Origin: SAR324 cluster bacterium
GTDB lineage: Bacteria > SAR324 > JACQKK01
DNA: 45,874 bases
Direction: 5' to 3'
Assembly: GCA_022573975.1 (NCBI GenBank)
Contig: JACZSY010000003.1
Span: forward strand, 1 to 45,874
A program made the position numbers and the translations under genes. Below, in pieces: positions 6,593-13,351 of the stretch. The first letter of the stretch is position 1; every line of letters starts with the position of its first letter. A model generated the notes under the pieces. That model had not been told where the DNA came from. It was given only the letters and a program-made list of their open reading frames with translations, and ran no database searches.

Positions 6593-6720
6593 GAAGACCA
6601 TTCCCTCCGTTCGTCTCTCTCCGGGCTTGAGGGCTGTGCCCGGTGCGTCAGGGCTGGATATGTTGGGGGCCCTGGCTGGGATTTTCCCTCGGCGGACAAG
6701 GGCTTGCGAGAGAAGGCGCC

Positions 6721-7887
6721 ATGACCGAACCCACCCTTCCCCCCCCAAATGGTTCCGGCTCATCGATATTTTCACCGCTTCCCACCATCGGGCGATTTGA
6801 GCACCATGGCCGGGTGGGGGAGTTGTTTCCCATCACCCTGGCCAATTTGTTCTATAAGGCGATCACCCTTGGGATTTACCATTTCTGGGGCAAGACCCGG
6901 GTGCGCCGCTACCTGTGGGGCCGCACCTCGTTCGAGGGGGACGCCCTGGAATACACCGGAGAGGGCATCGAACTGTTCAAGGGGTTGCTTTTCAGCCTGA
7001 AATGGTTGCTCCCCCCGATCCTCTTCTTTGTTATGATTATTGTTTTCTTCATAATTGGACTGGTTTCCAAAGATTCTTCACTCCTCCCATTCATTTTCGT
7101 CTTGTTCATCTATGGCTATGTGATTTTTTTGATGGGATATGGGCGTTACAGCGCCAGGAAATACATGTTCGGCCACACCCGGTGGCGGGGCATCCGGCTG
7201 GGCCTTTCCGGTTCGGCCAAGGATCATGCCCTGAAGGGCTTGCGATACACCTTCCTCACCGCTATAACGCTTGGCATCTACACGCCCTTCATGCGCAACC
7301 ATCTGGCCGCCAATTTCATCAATCACACCTGGATCGGCGACAGGAAATTGCATTATCCCACGGGCAAGGGGATAGCGGTGGGTTTCGTCGGCCGATTTTG
7401 GGGCATGGTGGCCATGGGCGCGGCCTATACCTTCATCAGGGATTTGGCATACCAAAAAACGGTTCAGGGCCTCGCGGACTATTTTATCCGCACGATGGAC
7501 GCCTCGGACAAGAGCATCATTTTCATGTTCCAGGCCTTGGTCATTTTCCTCGCCGCACTCTATTATATTCCCTTCGCCATGATCTGGTTCTGGTACCGCG
7601 CCGGTGAGATACGCATTTTCATCGACAACACCGAAATTGAAGGCGCCCACCTGCAAACGAACTTCGATACCGGTCCGTTCGTCTGGCTGCGCATCACCAA
7701 CATCGCCGCGGTGCTGGTAACCCTCGGGCTGGCTTTTCCCTGGGCGGCGGTGCGCACGGCGCGGTTCTTTTCAAACCACATCAGGATTGTTGGAACCCTC
7801 GACCTGTCTTCAATCGGCCAGAGTTCCGAGGAGGTGCTGCGGGAAGGCGAAGGGTTGGCCGAGGTGTTTGACCTTGGAATCATCTAA
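6721..7887 (+). CDS. DUF898 (YjgN-like) multi-pass membrane protein
   Basis: 388 residues, like E. coli YjgN (about 398). The family signature is present: repeats of a short module with LANLFYKAITLGIYHFWGK near 40-60, TFLTAITLGIYTPFMRN near 180 and a third version LVTLGLAFPWAAVRTARF near 340, each followed by a membrane helix pair. Function is unknown across the family. ATG 6721 has GAGAGAAGG just upstream; the ORF-track start at 6643 lies in the leader. Only 17 bases separate it from ridA, and a good promoter lies upstream of the pair, so they are probably one transcript. Confidence 0.85.
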   Translation: MTEPTLPPPNGSGSSIFSPLPTIGRFEHHGRVGELFPITLANLFYKAITLGIYHFWGKTRVRRYLWGRTSFEGDALEYTGEGIELFKGLLFSLKWLLPPILFFVMIIVFFIIGLVSKDSSLLPFIFVLFIYGYVIFLMGYGRYSARKYMFGHTRWRGIRLGLSGSAKDHALKGLRYTFLTAITLGIYTPFMRNHLAANFINHTWIGDRKLHYPTGKGIAVGFVGRFWGMVAMGAAYTFIRDLAYQKTVQGLADYFIRTMDASDKSIIFMFQALVIFLAALYYIPFAMIWFWYRAGEIRIFIDNTEIEGAHLQTNFDTGPFVWLRITNIAAVLVTLGLAFPWAAVRTARFFSNHIRIVGTLDLSSIGQSSEEVLREGEGLAEVFDLGII

Positions 7888-8719: not shown

Positions 8720-11287
8720 TTAGGACGGCTCCACCGATCCTTCCGGCCCCAGCGGTTTCAGAAAGATGATCAGTTGCGGCAACAGGGTCAGCGCGGTGAG
8801 CAGCGCGATGACCATGGCCAGGCCCGTGAGGAGCCCAAAGTAGATGCTGGGGATGAAGTTGGACAGCACCAGGATGGAAAAGCCGATGATGATGGTGATG
8901 GAAGTATAGTACATGGCGTAGCCGATGCTCAGGTGGCAGCGATGCATGGTGGCCAGGTAGTTGCGGTCCTTGGGAAATTCCTCCTTGAACCTGTGGATGT
9001 AGTGGATGGTGTTGTCCACGGCAATCCCGACGCTGATCGCCGCGATGGTGATGGTCATCAAATCGAGCGGGATTTTGGCCCAACCCATCAGTCCCAGCAC
9101 CACCCCGACGGAAAGGATATTGGGAAGAATGGCGATGAGGGAAATGGTCAGGGAACGGAACAGGATCAGAAACATCGCTATCAGCGCGAGGAGCACCACG
9201 CCCAGGGTCATGATTTGCGATTTAAAGAGACTTTGCAGCATGTTGTTGTAAAGCACCAGCAAACCGGCCACCTGGAACCGGTCTTCGGTCAACCCCATCT
9301 TTTCTTTCAGGTCTCTCTTGATCTTTTTCAGCAACTCGTTCCGCCGCAGGGCCGGGTCCGAATCGCGCACCAGGATCGAAAAGCGAACCTGATTGTTCTC
9401 CACGGAGACATAAGGATCGAGCACGATTTTCCGGTATTTTTCGGGCAGTTCGTTGTAGAGCAGGGCCAGGGCGAAGTTGTCCAGCGGGTCGCCATCGTTG
9501 AGGGATTTACCGACTTTGAGCATGGTGCCCAATGAGAGCACCTTGCCGGTTTCCGGCAGGTTGGCCAGATAGTCATGAATCTTTTCCACCTCTTCCATCT
9601 TTTCGGCGGTAAACCAGTATTGCGCCTGGCCCTTGGCCTCCTCGAACTCTTGTTCGAATGCATCGAACTCCTCGTCCTCCTCATCTTCCCCGTCCTCTCC
9701 CGTGTTGCCGGCCGGGGGCGCCTTCCGCCCGGGTTTCGGGCCGGGCTGTGTCTCCGTCTTCGGCTCCGTCTTCGGTTCCGTATTGAAGTTGAGCACCACG
9801 TCGAAAGGCGTGGTGCCTCCAAATTCCTGGTCGATCACCTTCATCCCCTGATAAATATCCGTATTTTCCTTGAAGTAATCGATGAAGCTGTTCTCAACCA
9901 TCAGCCGGGAGGCCCCGGCCACACAGACCACCAATACGATGCCGCTGACGACGAGAATGCTTTTTCCGTATTTCTCGGTCATGTTGGCCAGCACCTTGGT
10001 CAACCCGAAAAAGTTTTCGAAGGAAGTGTTGGGTGCGGCCTTGGGCAGCAGAACCAGCACCGTCGGGAAAACCAGGAACACCAGCACCAATGAAATGGCG
10101 ATTCCGGCGGACATCATCCAGCCGAAATTGATGACCGGCAAAATGCCGCTGAGGAGGAGCGAACTGAAGCCGGCAATGGTGGTGGTGACCATGAAAAGAC
10201 AGGGCTTGCCCATGAAGATCACAGTATCCTCGACCAGTTGCCGTTGATCGGCCTCGGGGTCGATTGTCACCAGTTCCCGGTAACGGACGATCAGGTGGAT
10301 GGTGAGCGCCATGGTGATGATGATTTGCAGGGAGATGAAATTGGAGGAAATGACCGTGACCTCCCAACCGAACATGCCCAACAATCCGCTGGTGGCCACC
10401 ACGGAGAACGCGCAGGTGACGAGGGGAAGAACAATCCAGCGGAATTGCCGGAAAATGATCCACAAGGTGATGATGAGAAAGAAGAAAACGCCCAGCCCGA
10501 AAACCAGCAGATCGTCTTTGATGAAGGTGATCAGGTCATCGGCGATCATGGTGACGCCGCCCAGGAACAGTTCGGCCTCGCCGCGGTAATTATCCATCAC
10601 GGCGCGAACGGCGAGAATCGTTTGATGTGCCTCGATCCGCACTCTGTCCCGATGTTTTTTGAACTCGGCGTGCAACCGGTCCAGTTCCCCTCGTTCCTCC
10701 GGGCTCAGCCCGCCCGCCCTTCTCTTTTCGCGCAACTGGTAGCGGCGGTCGATAAACTTCCGCCGGGCGGGGTCGTCGTCCAGGACGACCTGCAGCGCCG
10801 TGGTTTTGAAATCGCGGCTGACCAGCAGGTTTTTGTATATGGGACTGTTTCGAAATTCTTTTTCGGCCAGCGTCTTGTCTATTTGATGGGATTCAAGGGA
10901 GGGTACGTCCTTCAGCAGTTCCTTGAGCGGCTTGGGCGGGCTTTCCATCAAGGGCACGTCCAGGATGGAAACGATGGACGCCACCCCCTTGACGGCGATC
11001 AGCTCCTTCTTGAGGCGGCGTAGATTTTCCAGCGTTGAATCGGCGAGCAGGCCGTCGTTTTTCGGCGCATAGGTGATGACCAGGAAATCGGGGGTGCTGT
11101 AGCGCGCATTGATGACCCTGGTGATGCGAAGGTCCTCGTCGCCTTCCAGCATGAGGGTCTCCGCCGAGGCATCGACCTCCAGTTTGGTTGCCTGATACCC
11201 CAAAAACGCGATGGCGATGCAGATGAGGGTGAGAACGGTGCGGGGAAAGGCCAGCACATAATTCCGGTAGATGGATCTAAGCATCAC
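8720..11287 (-). CDS. RND superfamily (MMPL-type) lipid exporter of an Mla-like locus
   Basis: 855 residues. Topology is that of MMPL/HpnN-type RND proteins: one helix at about 13-32, a periplasmic domain to about 240, a five-to-six helix block, a second lone helix near 440, a second periplasmic domain, and a final helix block to the end. These proton-driven proteins move lipids or hopanoids across the envelope. At about 500-550 the second periplasmic domain carries an EPKTEPKTE repeat, then an acidic run ending EEFDAFEQEFEE, which mirrors an element in the upstream mlaA product. It is the last gene of a minus-strand set (membrane protein, mlaA, mlaC, RND), 18 bases after mlaC, and probably energises the lipid path in place of the MlaFEDB ABC transporter, which is absent here. 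The exact substrate is an inference. Confidence 0.88.
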   Translation of the reverse strand: MMLRSIYRNYVLAFPRTVLTLICIAIAFLGYQATKLEVDASAETLMLEGDEDLRITRVINARYSTPDFLVITYAPKNDGLLADSTLENLRRLKKELIAVKGVASIVSILDVPLMESPPKPLKELLKDVPSLESHQIDKTLAEKEFRNSPIYKNLLVSRDFKTTALQVVLDDDPARRKFIDRRYQLREKRRAGGLSPEERGELDRLHAEFKKHRDRVRIEAHQTILAVRAVMDNYRGEAELFLGGVTMIADDLITFIKDDLLVFGLGVFFFLIITLWIIFRQFRWIVLPLVTCAFSVVATSGLLGMFGWEVTVISSNFISLQIIITMALTIHLIVRYRELVTIDPEADQRQLVEDTVIFMGKPCLFMVTTTIAGFSSLLLSGILPVINFGWMMSAGIAISLVLVFLVFPTVLVLLPKAAPNTSFENFFGLTKVLANMTEKYGKSILVVSGIVLVVCVAGASRLMVENSFIDYFKENTDIYQGMKVIDQEFGGTTPFDVVLNFNTEPKTEPKTETQPGPKPGRKAPPAGNTGEDGEDEEDEEFDAFEQEFEEAKGQAQYWFTAEKMEEVEKIHDYLANLPETGKVLSLGTMLKVGKSLNDGDPLDNFALALLYNELPEKYRKIVLDPYVSVENNQVRFSILVRDSDPALRRNELLKKIKRDLKEKMGLTEDRFQVAGLLVLYNNMLQSLFKSQIMTLGVVLLALIAMFLILFRSLTISLIAILPNILSVGVVLGLMGWAKIPLDLMTITIAAISVGIAVDNTIHYIHRFKEEFPKDRNYLATMHRCHLSIGYAMYYTSITIIIGFSILVLSNFIPSIYFGLLTGLAMVIALLTALTLLPQLIIFLKPLGPEGSVEPS

Positions 11288-11305
11288 GTCTGCCCGCGAT
11301 TGAAA

Positions 11306-11923
11306 CTATTTTTTAACGGAGGGAGTTATCAATCCCCCTGTTTCCCGCAATTTTTTGAGGACGTCCTCAATGGTTCCCTTTCTCAGCAGCCCATTGAACT
11401 GAGAACGGTAAGTCTGAACCACGCTGACGCCCAGTATGACGATGTCATACACCCTCCATCCCCTCCGCTTCGATTTCCAGAACTTGTACACCATGTCCTT
11501 CTTGTCGGTCTTGGAAACCAGGCGGGTCAGGACATGGATCCGCTTTTTAACCTGTGTCGCGTTCTCAATGACCACATTTTCATCGGTGTAGAGATCCAAT
11601 TTTTCCAGATAGGATTCCTGCAGCCGCTTGACGAAGAGAGCGAGAAATTCCTTTTTCTGGGCCCTGGTCATGTTGACCCAGTGCTTCCTGCCCAGGCTAT
11701 TCCTGGCCATCACTTTAAAGTCGAAGAGCGGGTTTACCACCTCGACAATCCGTTTGTTTCTTTCCTTTTTGTCCAGCGTTTTGTTTTTCAGAAGTTGGAT
11801 CACCGTGCCGATCTTTTCACTGGTGATTCTTAAAACCTCACTTTTTTCATCGGCCAGTACCGGGTGAACGGAAAAAATGGCGCAGATGGAAAAAATCGCC
11901 GCCACGATCAACGGTTTCATCAT
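11306..11923 (-). CDS. mlaC: MlaC-type periplasmic phospholipid-binding protein
   Basis: 205 residues. An N-terminal Sec signal peptide with cleavage after about residue 24 (HPVLA-DE) sends it to the periplasm. The mature part matches the MlaC/Ttg2D family: VVNPLFDFKVMARNSLGRKHW, MTRAQKKEFLALFVKRLQESYLEKL, and a C-terminal YDIVILGVSVVQTYRSQF. MlaC shuttles phospholipids between the MlaA complex and an inner-membrane transporter. Its start codon lies 3 bases after the mlaA stop, with GGAG inside the mlaA end, so translation is probably coupled. Two consecutive ATG codons (11923, 11920) could both be used. Confidence 0.92.
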   Translation of the reverse strand: MMKPLIVAAIFSICAIFSVHPVLADEKSEVLRITSEKIGTVIQLLKNKTLDKKERNKRIVEVVNPLFDFKVMARNSLGRKHWVNMTRAQKKEFLALFVKRLQESYLEKLDLYTDENVVIENATQVKKRIHVLTRLVSKTDKKDMVYKFWKSKRRGWRVYDIVILGVSVVQTYRSQFNGLLRKGTIEDVLKKLRETGGLITPSVKK

Positions 11924-11926
11924 GAT

Positions 11927-12988
11927 TTACTCCAGTATCTTCTTCCTGCGGTTCTGTTCGTAGACATCCCTCAAAAATGGATAGAGGTCGATGGCGTCTT
12001 TTTTCAGGTTCTCATACTCCCCGATATGAAGGGAGGTGTCGTTGACTTTTTCAAATATTCGAACAGCCAACTCTTTCCGGGACGGATCGATAAATCGCTT
12101 GGGATCCAGGTAATAATCCGGAGCGAGGCTGAAAATGTCCCGCAGATTGGACGGCCCCAGGATGGGCAGGACAATATGGGGGCCGGCGCCCACCCCCCAA
12201 AATCCCAGCGTCTGTCCGAAGTCCTCTTCGTGGGCTTCCAGGCCGAACCATATCTTCGCCGGGTCCCACAACCCCAGCAGGCCAAGGGTCGAATTGATGC
12301 AAAAACGCAACAACTCTTCCCCCGCATTGAGGAATTTGGCCTGCAACACGTTGTTGATGAAGCGAACCGGGAAGAGCAGATTGCGCCAAAAATCGGCGAT
12401 CCTCCGCCGCCCGAATTCGGGCACGACGAAACGATATCCCCTGGCCGCGGGATCGAAGACATAAATGTAAAATCCATCGTTGAACGATGTGACGACGCGG
12501 TTGTAACCCTCGAAGGGATCGGAAATCGTGGCATCCAACGATTTTCCGAATTCCTCCTCGAACCCATCGAATTCATCGTCGTCATCGTCGTCATCGTCAT
12601 CCTTGGCGTCACCCCGGAGGTCCCTGTTTTTTTCGGGGGCGGCGGTTTTCTCCTCCGTTTGGGTTTTCCGCTCCGGCGGCCTTCCACCGGGGGCCGGGGC
12701 ATGCAAACCAACCAGTGTGATTCCGCTGTCCGGAGCGTTGGAAGCGTCATCGGGTCCGGTATCGCCGGCCCGGGCGGGAGGGGATACACGGCCAACGGCC
12801 GCAACAACCGCACCGGCCCCACCGCCCGCACCATCCGCGGCGATTGCACCGCCCGCACTGGCCGCACCGTCCCGGCAGGAGCCGTGGTTATTGGGATAGG
12901 GTCCAACAATCATGGCGGCCTGAAGTTCCGATCCCAATAAAAACCAGGGAATCAAAATACAGGTGACTACTCGAACGGCCTTTTTCAA
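11927..12988 (-). CDS. mlaA: MlaA (VacJ) outer-membrane lipid-asymmetry protein with acidic N-terminal extension
   Basis: About 353 residues with the start at TTG 12988, which gives a normal signal peptide (KKAVRVVTCILIPWFLLG, cleavage near LQA) and has AGGAAG five bases upstream. The ORF track starts at TTG 13051. The MlaA domain begins at about residue 150 with DPFEGYNR and continues with FPVRFINNVLQAKF, INSTLGLLGLWDPA and GVGAGPHIVLPILGPS, all typical of the family, which removes phospholipids from the outer leaflet. Two oddities: there is no lipobox Cys, though MlaA is normally a lipoprotein; and a long Gly/Ala/Pro-rich linker ends in nine Asp followed by EFDGFEEEF. The same acidic element occurs in the RND partner. 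It is first of the mlaA-mlaC-RND trio. Confidence 0.9.
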   Translation of the reverse strand: MKKAVRVVTCILIPWFLLGSELQAAMIVGPYPNNHGSCRDGAASAGGAIAADGAGGGAGAVVAAVGRVSPPARAGDTGPDDASNAPDSGITLVGLHAPAPGGRPPERKTQTEEKTAAPEKNRDLRGDAKDDDDDDDDDEFDGFEEEFGKSLDATISDPFEGYNRVVTSFNDGFYIYVFDPAARGYRFVVPEFGRRRIADFWRNLLFPVRFINNVLQAKFLNAGEELLRFCINSTLGLLGLWDPAKIWFGLEAHEEDFGQTLGFWGVGAGPHIVLPILGPSNLRDIFSLAPDYYLDPKRFIDPSRKELAVRIFEKVNDTSLHIGEYENLKKDAIDLYPFLRDVYEQNRRKKILE

Positions 12989-13351
12989 ATCCACTTCCTG
13001 TTTCGTGGGAATTCGGATTCGCGCCTTTTTTCGCAGAGGCCGAACCTGCAATTTTGACCATCACGCCGCCCCATCGGTTCACAGCGGCCTGGAACGGCAG
13101 GACATGGAACCAAATGACATGGGACAGGAATATCCTGTTTTTACAAAAATTTCCAGGGTGGAAATTTCCAGAGCCCTTCACAACCCAGTGGCCGTCAGAT
13201 CGTTTTTACCGTTCATAAGCGTCCATAAGGAAGAATTCCAACTGCGCCCCGTCAGGAATCTGAACGCGCCCGCGGTGAATTCAACCTCCGCGTTTTCCCC
13301 CATCGACGTTTTTCCCATCCAGCGCCAACGCAAAAGCACCAGGGCCAGCGG
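12989..13351. other. Leader region of mlaA with inverted repeats
   Basis: 363 bases between the upstream membrane-protein stop and the mlaA start. No gene is supported. It contains ACAGGA-ata-TCCTGT (13124-13138) and AAATTTCCA-ggg-TGGAAATTT (13147-13167), adjacent on the mlaA promoter side. I found no clear -35/-10 pair, so it is unclear whether mlaA has its own promoter or reads through from the upstream gene. Confidence 0.5.
13124..13167 (-). promoter_or_regulatory. Paired inverted repeats upstream of mlaA, possible operator
   Basis: Two adjacent dyads, ACAGGA-N3-TCCTGT and AAATTTCCA-N3-TGGAAATTT, lie about 135-180 bases upstream of the chosen mlaA start. Adjacent dyads of different sequence could bind a regulator or form tandem RNA hairpins. 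This rests on symmetry only. Confidence 0.3.

Follow-up and report, generated by a model that had tools for sequence, protein, structure and literature searches.

A short acidic-aromatic element is found in two of the three products of a SAR324 operon, an MlaA-family protein and an MMPL/RND transporter, and it is likely that this element is a linear docking motif for the third product, the periplasmic shuttle MlaC, on both outer-membrane MlaA and inner-membrane MMPL/RND protein. Docking is inferred, as there are no binding data. The operon lies on the minus strand of the stretch of DNA that was analysed (the window, 45,874 nt), in the order mlaA, mlaC, mmpl, with mlaC in the middle. The genes and features are as follows.

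11927-13051, minus: mlaA, encoding an MlaA-family protein that has a long linker at its N-terminus and lacks a C-terminal tail (Pfam PF04333 over residues 177-370 of 374, E 6.5e-68)
12575-12601, minus: nine-Asp run before the element in MlaA, from the translation
12548-12577, minus: MlaA acidic-aromatic element DEFDGFEEEF, residues 159-168, at the same position across the phylum
11306-11923, minus: mlaC, basic periplasmic lipid shuttle (Pfam PF05494, E 6.9e-38), aligning with solved MlaC structures
11651-11689, minus: MlaC residues 79-91 (RKHWVNMTRAQKK), proposed docking site with charge co-variation, aligned with Leu78-Tyr82 and Arg90, a patch of E. coli MlaC
11441-11494, minus: MlaC residues 144-161, second stretch tracking element charge, aligned to the E. 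coli MlaC beta3/beta4 hairpin
8720-11287, minus: mmpl, MMPL/RND transporter, a distant relative of HpnN (Pfam PF03176, E 8e-29)
9644-9676, minus: MMPL acidic-aromatic element DEEFDAFEQEF, residues 538-548, conserved in the phylum and beyond

In the window's MlaA, nine Asp residues and then EFDGFEEEF stand directly ahead of the Pfam domain. In the MMPL protein, DEEDEEFDAFEQEFEE is found past residue 530, in the loop preceding a conserved YWFT helix; this places the element in periplasmic domain 2, past the seventh membrane segment (segments were counted by eye from the RND pattern, not computed). A sequence-only reading had described both stretches accurately, and the EFD-x-FE-x-EF module that it proposed as common to the two proteins also held. 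Its suggestion of mutating two Phe residues needs correction, since the element has three, spaced i, i+3, i+7 (F-x-x-F-x-x-x-F). By DNA pattern search, the strict pattern F-[DE]-x-F-[DE]-x-[DE]-F occurs at exactly two places in the 4.38-Mb genome, the MlaA and MMPL genes of the operon, and the reversed control pattern has no match anywhere in that genome. Shuffles of the linkers that keep their composition yield the strict pattern in just 0.06% (MlaA) and 0.03% (MMPL) of cases. Searched across 52 genomes of the phylum, the pattern matched 65 times, with 30 of the matches counted inside the operon, vs. 14 in all for the reversed control.

The two Mla proteins score above the curated family cut-offs, at 228.7 bits for PF04333 (cut-off 25) and 130.5 bits for PF05494 (cut-off 26). 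MlaC is strongly basic, with a mature pI of about 10.2 and 41 Lys and Arg residues to 21 Asp and Glu. The Pfam domain of MlaA stops 4 residues short of the stop codon, and the match to the NCBIfam MlaA model ends at profile position 220 of 252, leaving 221-252 unmatched; judged by these profile ends, the acidic amphipathic helix that follows the domain in E. coli is absent from the window's protein. No lipobox Cys follows its hydrophobic stretch, although characterised MlaA members have a lipid-anchored N-terminus. The domain match stands without a lipobox, and the protein is filed here as an MlaA-domain protein, not as a proven lipoprotein. A simple pattern found lipoboxes in eight of 31 MlaA sequences from the phylum and missed at least two plausible ones. 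MlaA proteins of the phylum (window 11927-13051 and L006-L064) often have an ordinary cleavable signal in place of the lipobox Cys, and it is possible that MlaA is not a lipoprotein there.

Conservation within the phylum was assessed from the surroundings of 31 MlaA genes, the window's among them. MlaA and MlaC occur together at all 31 loci, and an MMPL gene is next at 30; at the remaining locus (L051) the contig ends first. Nearly every operon has the element in both the MlaA linker and the MMPL loop, with 27 of 30 positive for both proteins under a strict automatic criterion. The three failures are one MMPL sequence cut at a contig end and two operons where one Lys falls within the scoring window. 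In one genome (L048 / L066) MlaC is strongly divergent, sharing 26% identity with that of the window, and the elements of MlaA and of MMPL are both degenerate.

Outside the phylum, 80 loci came from searching genome contigs with the MMPL alignment. By record title, three-gene operons are found in Desulfobacterota, Nitrospirota, Planctomycetota, Campylobacterota, Lentisphaerae, and Elusimicrobia, and the element itself recurs in operons of the first four. Both proteins carry it by the automatic criterion in 17 of 24 such operons, those that fail including truncated, Lys-containing, and Scalindua MlaA sequences. The sequence-only reading had proposed co-occurrence of the module in Mla-like operons as a check, and the outcome that would have counted against it, homologous operons with the module in only one protein at random, was looked for and not seen; both carry it. 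The Scalindua MlaA is acidic but has no Phe element, though the Scalindua MMPL protein does. At four loci from Scalindua and a related Brocadiaceae genome (L080, L081, L083, L086), the MlaA stretch is acidic and free of Phe (e.g., EYVDDENVDYVD) and the MMPL loops keep their Phe residues.

Variants of the element match within a genome, most clearly in Sulfurimonas, where at locus L103 the MMPL protein has ELDSFTDEFK and MlaA has ELASFTDEMK, with FTDE common to both. At L111 the corresponding sequences are ELDSFADEFE and ELEGFADEFE, sharing FADE. In 29 genomes the MMPL gene does not adjoin mlaA in the stretch fetched; an acidic-aromatic element is present in MlaA in 20 of these, more often in the C-terminal tail, as in E. 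coli MlaA. Matching is seen here too, with GFVDEGF and DFVDEGGF as the pair in Saccharospirillum, DPFASD in both MlaA and MMPL in Marinobacter, and a Thalassomonas MlaA element that closely matches its own MMPL loop. Ranking the MlaA and MMPL linkers by simple similarity gave a noisy result, with the MMPL loops of the phylum matching everything well, so the comparison was made by permutation among divergent representatives. Over 30 divergent genomes, the within-genome match between MlaA and MMPL elements exceeded that of permuted pairs (p about 1e-4, composition-corrected); for each group alone, the composition-corrected effect was weaker (p 0.02 to 0.25). Gammaproteobacterial MMPL proteins encoded apart from mlaA (L100, L106, L114, L117, L129) have acidic-aromatic repeats of DPFA or GFVDE type in the same loop, and the MlaA proteins of L146-L173 have elements similar to these repeats, in the C-terminal tail or the linker. 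A common neighbour of the orphan MMPL genes was sought, and no shared periplasmic protein was found.

There is precedent in E. coli for two proteins meeting MlaC at one site. The acidic C-terminal tail helix of MlaA (AIQDDLKDIDSE, sequence checked) and the FEDPEL loop of MlaD bind the same MlaC cleft (PMC10245069, PMC10719372, PMC11289387). The isolated tail peptide binds MlaC (PMC10245069, PMC10719372), with a K_D of 57 uM, and the MlaA substitutions I241N, L245N, and I248N reduce or abolish binding (PMC10245069). Charge reversals in MlaA also disrupt binding, and D243R/D244R is rescued by K84D/R90D in MlaC (PMC10719372). The MlaD segment F118-E-D-P-E-L123 (FEDPEL sequence checked) occupies this cleft, and binding by the F118A mutant is undetectable (PMC10245069, PMC11289387). 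The MlaA tail and the MlaD loop are predicted to be mutually exclusive on MlaC.

Like the E. coli MlaA tail helix (residues 238-251, PDB 8I8X), the window's MlaA element is short, acidic, and amphipathic, lies in a flexible tether, and presents some three bulky hydrophobic side chains along a single face of the helix; the same basic, hydrophobic site on MlaC is proposed for it. Unlike the tail, it is N-terminal to the domain, uses Phe instead of Ile or Leu, is much more acidic, and has its hydrophobic residues at i, i+3, i+7 rather than i, i+4, i+7. Since the window's MlaA has no tail and carries its element before the domain, a swap of position with retention of the same job is suggested. The MMPL element resembles the MlaD beta6-beta7 loop in being acidic-aromatic and on an inner-membrane partner, with FEDPEL similar to FEEEF; it differs from that loop (i, i+5) in having one fewer residue between hydrophobics and in belonging to an MMPL/RND protein, not an MCE-domain protein. 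Hopanoid transport by HpnN and HpnM likewise combines an RND transporter with an MlaC-like periplasmic protein, and the window's MMPL and MlaC proteins match HpnN and HpnM weakly, but the scores are far under the curated cut-offs (103 vs. 752 and 67 vs. 160 bits) and the window's operon has MlaA. Identification of the MMPL protein as a true HpnN hopanoid transporter was rejected, at 103 bits against the TIGR03480 cut-off of 751.85.

The charge of the MlaC cleft varies with the acidity of both elements. Five cleft positions (window MlaC residues 79, 80, 83, 90, and 91) were identified by alignment to the sites in the E. coli literature, and their net charge was set against the acidity of the 30-residue stretch that contains each element. 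These positions were picked after reading the papers and seeing the basic MlaC columns, and before any correlation was computed. Over 51 operons, their charge correlates with acidity in both partners, at rho 0.61 for the MlaA linker and rho 0.56 for the MMPL loop, a combined value reached by 0.1% of random sets of five variable-charge MlaC columns; the correlation for the remainder of MlaC is only 0.06. With phylogenetic contrasts, the five positions give r 0.57 for MlaA (p 0.0016) and r 0.55 for MMPL (p 0.006), while the rest of MlaC gives 0.18 and 0.16, neither significant. The acidities of the two elements also go together once phylogeny is corrected for (r 0.69, p 5e-5). Controls using the folded domain of MlaA and the MMPL protein outside the loop showed no significant relation. 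A scan of MlaC in 13-residue windows singled out residues 144-161, a region found in the data rather than set beforehand; the beta3/beta4 hairpin to which it aligns is the other wall of the published cleft.

The co-variation expected of a docking element is present, strong in the phylum (rho 0.59 for MlaA and 0.67 for MMPL in its operons alone, n=29) and weak outside it (0.28 and 0.33, not significant, in the 22 operons of other phyla alone). The MMPL co-variation vanishes when only 16 residues are counted. That MlaC might be the common partner, as the sequence-only reading had suggested, gains support from both the E. coli precedent and this charge co-variation; the contact itself is inferred.

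The usual inner-membrane partner of MlaC appears to be missing. The window's genome (93% complete) has no match to PF02405 (MlaE) or PF02470 (MlaD), so the protein set of the canonical MlaA-MlaC-MlaFEDB pathway is not found there. Neither protein was detected in 28 of the 32 MlaA-bearing genomes of the phylum; each is present in four of these 32, vs. 14 of 20 (MlaE) and 16 of 20 (MlaD) genomes without MlaA (Fisher p 4.6e-5 and 1.4e-6, respectively). Incompleteness of the genomes may conceal some MlaE and MlaD genes. With neither protein detected in the window's genome or in most MlaA-bearing genomes of the phylum, the leading candidate for MlaC's partner at the inner membrane is the MMPL protein, and in this phylum it probably replaces MlaFEDB. 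In other phyla, MlaE is present in many of the operon-bearing genomes, and often in Campylobacterota; the MMPL protein is therefore no simple MlaFEDB replacement there, and two routes may coexist. Genomes of the phylum without MlaA and MlaC mostly have MlaE and/or MlaD (G001, G002, G004-G006, G009, G027, G028, G031-G037, G041), and the two gene sets are nearly mutually exclusive.

In the mechanism proposed, each copy of the element would lie in a flexible acidic linker and fold to a short helix on binding, with its Phe side chains (i, i+3, i+7) entering a hydrophobic groove of MlaC and its Asp and Glu residues meeting the Lys and Arg around that groove (window MlaC residues 79-91 and 144-161). 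MlaC would be captured, loaded or unloaded, released, and then captured at the opposite membrane; it would be held at one membrane at a time because both copies are proposed to use the same site. The MlaA motif would take over the job of the E. coli C-terminal tail helix, relocated ahead of the domain, and the MMPL motif that of the MlaD beta6-beta7 loop, with the MMPL protein standing in for MlaFEDB. Physical binding, helix formation, and mutual exclusion are all inferences, and for the lipid cargo and the energy source the protein families are the sole ground of inference. The families are also the only basis for a direction of lipid flow, and none is established.

Of the alternatives considered, the one that survives best is that both elements bind a common partner other than MlaC, such as an outer-membrane porin, a component of the cell wall, or a periplasmic chaperone yet to be recognised, with MlaC a mere genomic neighbour. 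In its favor, MlaC binding is inferred without binding data, and gammaproteobacteria have matching elements as well, with an MMPL gene that does not neighbour mlaC. Against it, the centre of the co-variation is the MlaC cleft in which MlaA and MlaD are known to bind, the mlaC gene is placed between or next to mlaA and mmpl in the operons, and the E. coli tail whose place the element takes is itself bound by MlaC (PMC10245069, PMC10719372). On this evidence another partner seems unlikely.

Slightly less credible is convergence of low-complexity acidic linkers with chance Phe residues and no common partner. Acidic and Phe residues do form low-complexity linkers, and the possibility that these converge remains as a caveat; both elements lie in such linkers, and their sequences vary considerably between lineages. 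The pattern is nonetheless produced by just 0.06% and 0.03% of composition-keeping shuffles, is unique to the operon in the window's genome and concentrated in it over 52 genomes, and matches within genomes better than in permuted pairs, and the acidities of the two elements remain linked when phylogeny is corrected for (r 0.69, p 5e-5). That each element packs against the protein that carries it, or links MlaA directly to MMPL as a bridge across the periplasm without MlaC docking, would be compatible with two co-encoded, periplasm-facing proteins, but it is very unlikely, since two like-charged acidic peptides would not be expected to bind each other and element acidity tracks the charge of the MlaC cleft and not that of the MlaA domain or the remaining MMPL protein.

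Docking on MlaC is thus retained as the preferred reading, and a bolder version of it, toward which the balance tips only slightly, is that MlaA, MlaC, and the MMPL/RND protein form a complete three-part lipid route without MlaFEDB, presumably powered by the proton gradient. A single portable docking motif, present at both membranes, would set the stops of the shuttle, having shifted between the N- and C-terminal sides of MlaA and arisen on an unrelated inner-membrane partner. Which way Mla-type lipid transport runs and what powers it are matters of debate; if this reading is true, with an RND-type pump in the place of the ABC transporter and the same MlaC handle at both ends, the direction and the energy source could each be tested using two short peptides and one shuttle. 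A function would also follow for a widespread MMPL group, along with a sequence signature for MlaC partners where the genes are scattered. No treatment of an MMPL or RND protein as an MlaC partner was found in the open-access literature searched, which mostly excludes subscription journals. Near the operon, at 6643-7887 of the window and on the opposite strand, is a gene for a DUF898 membrane protein of unknown function.
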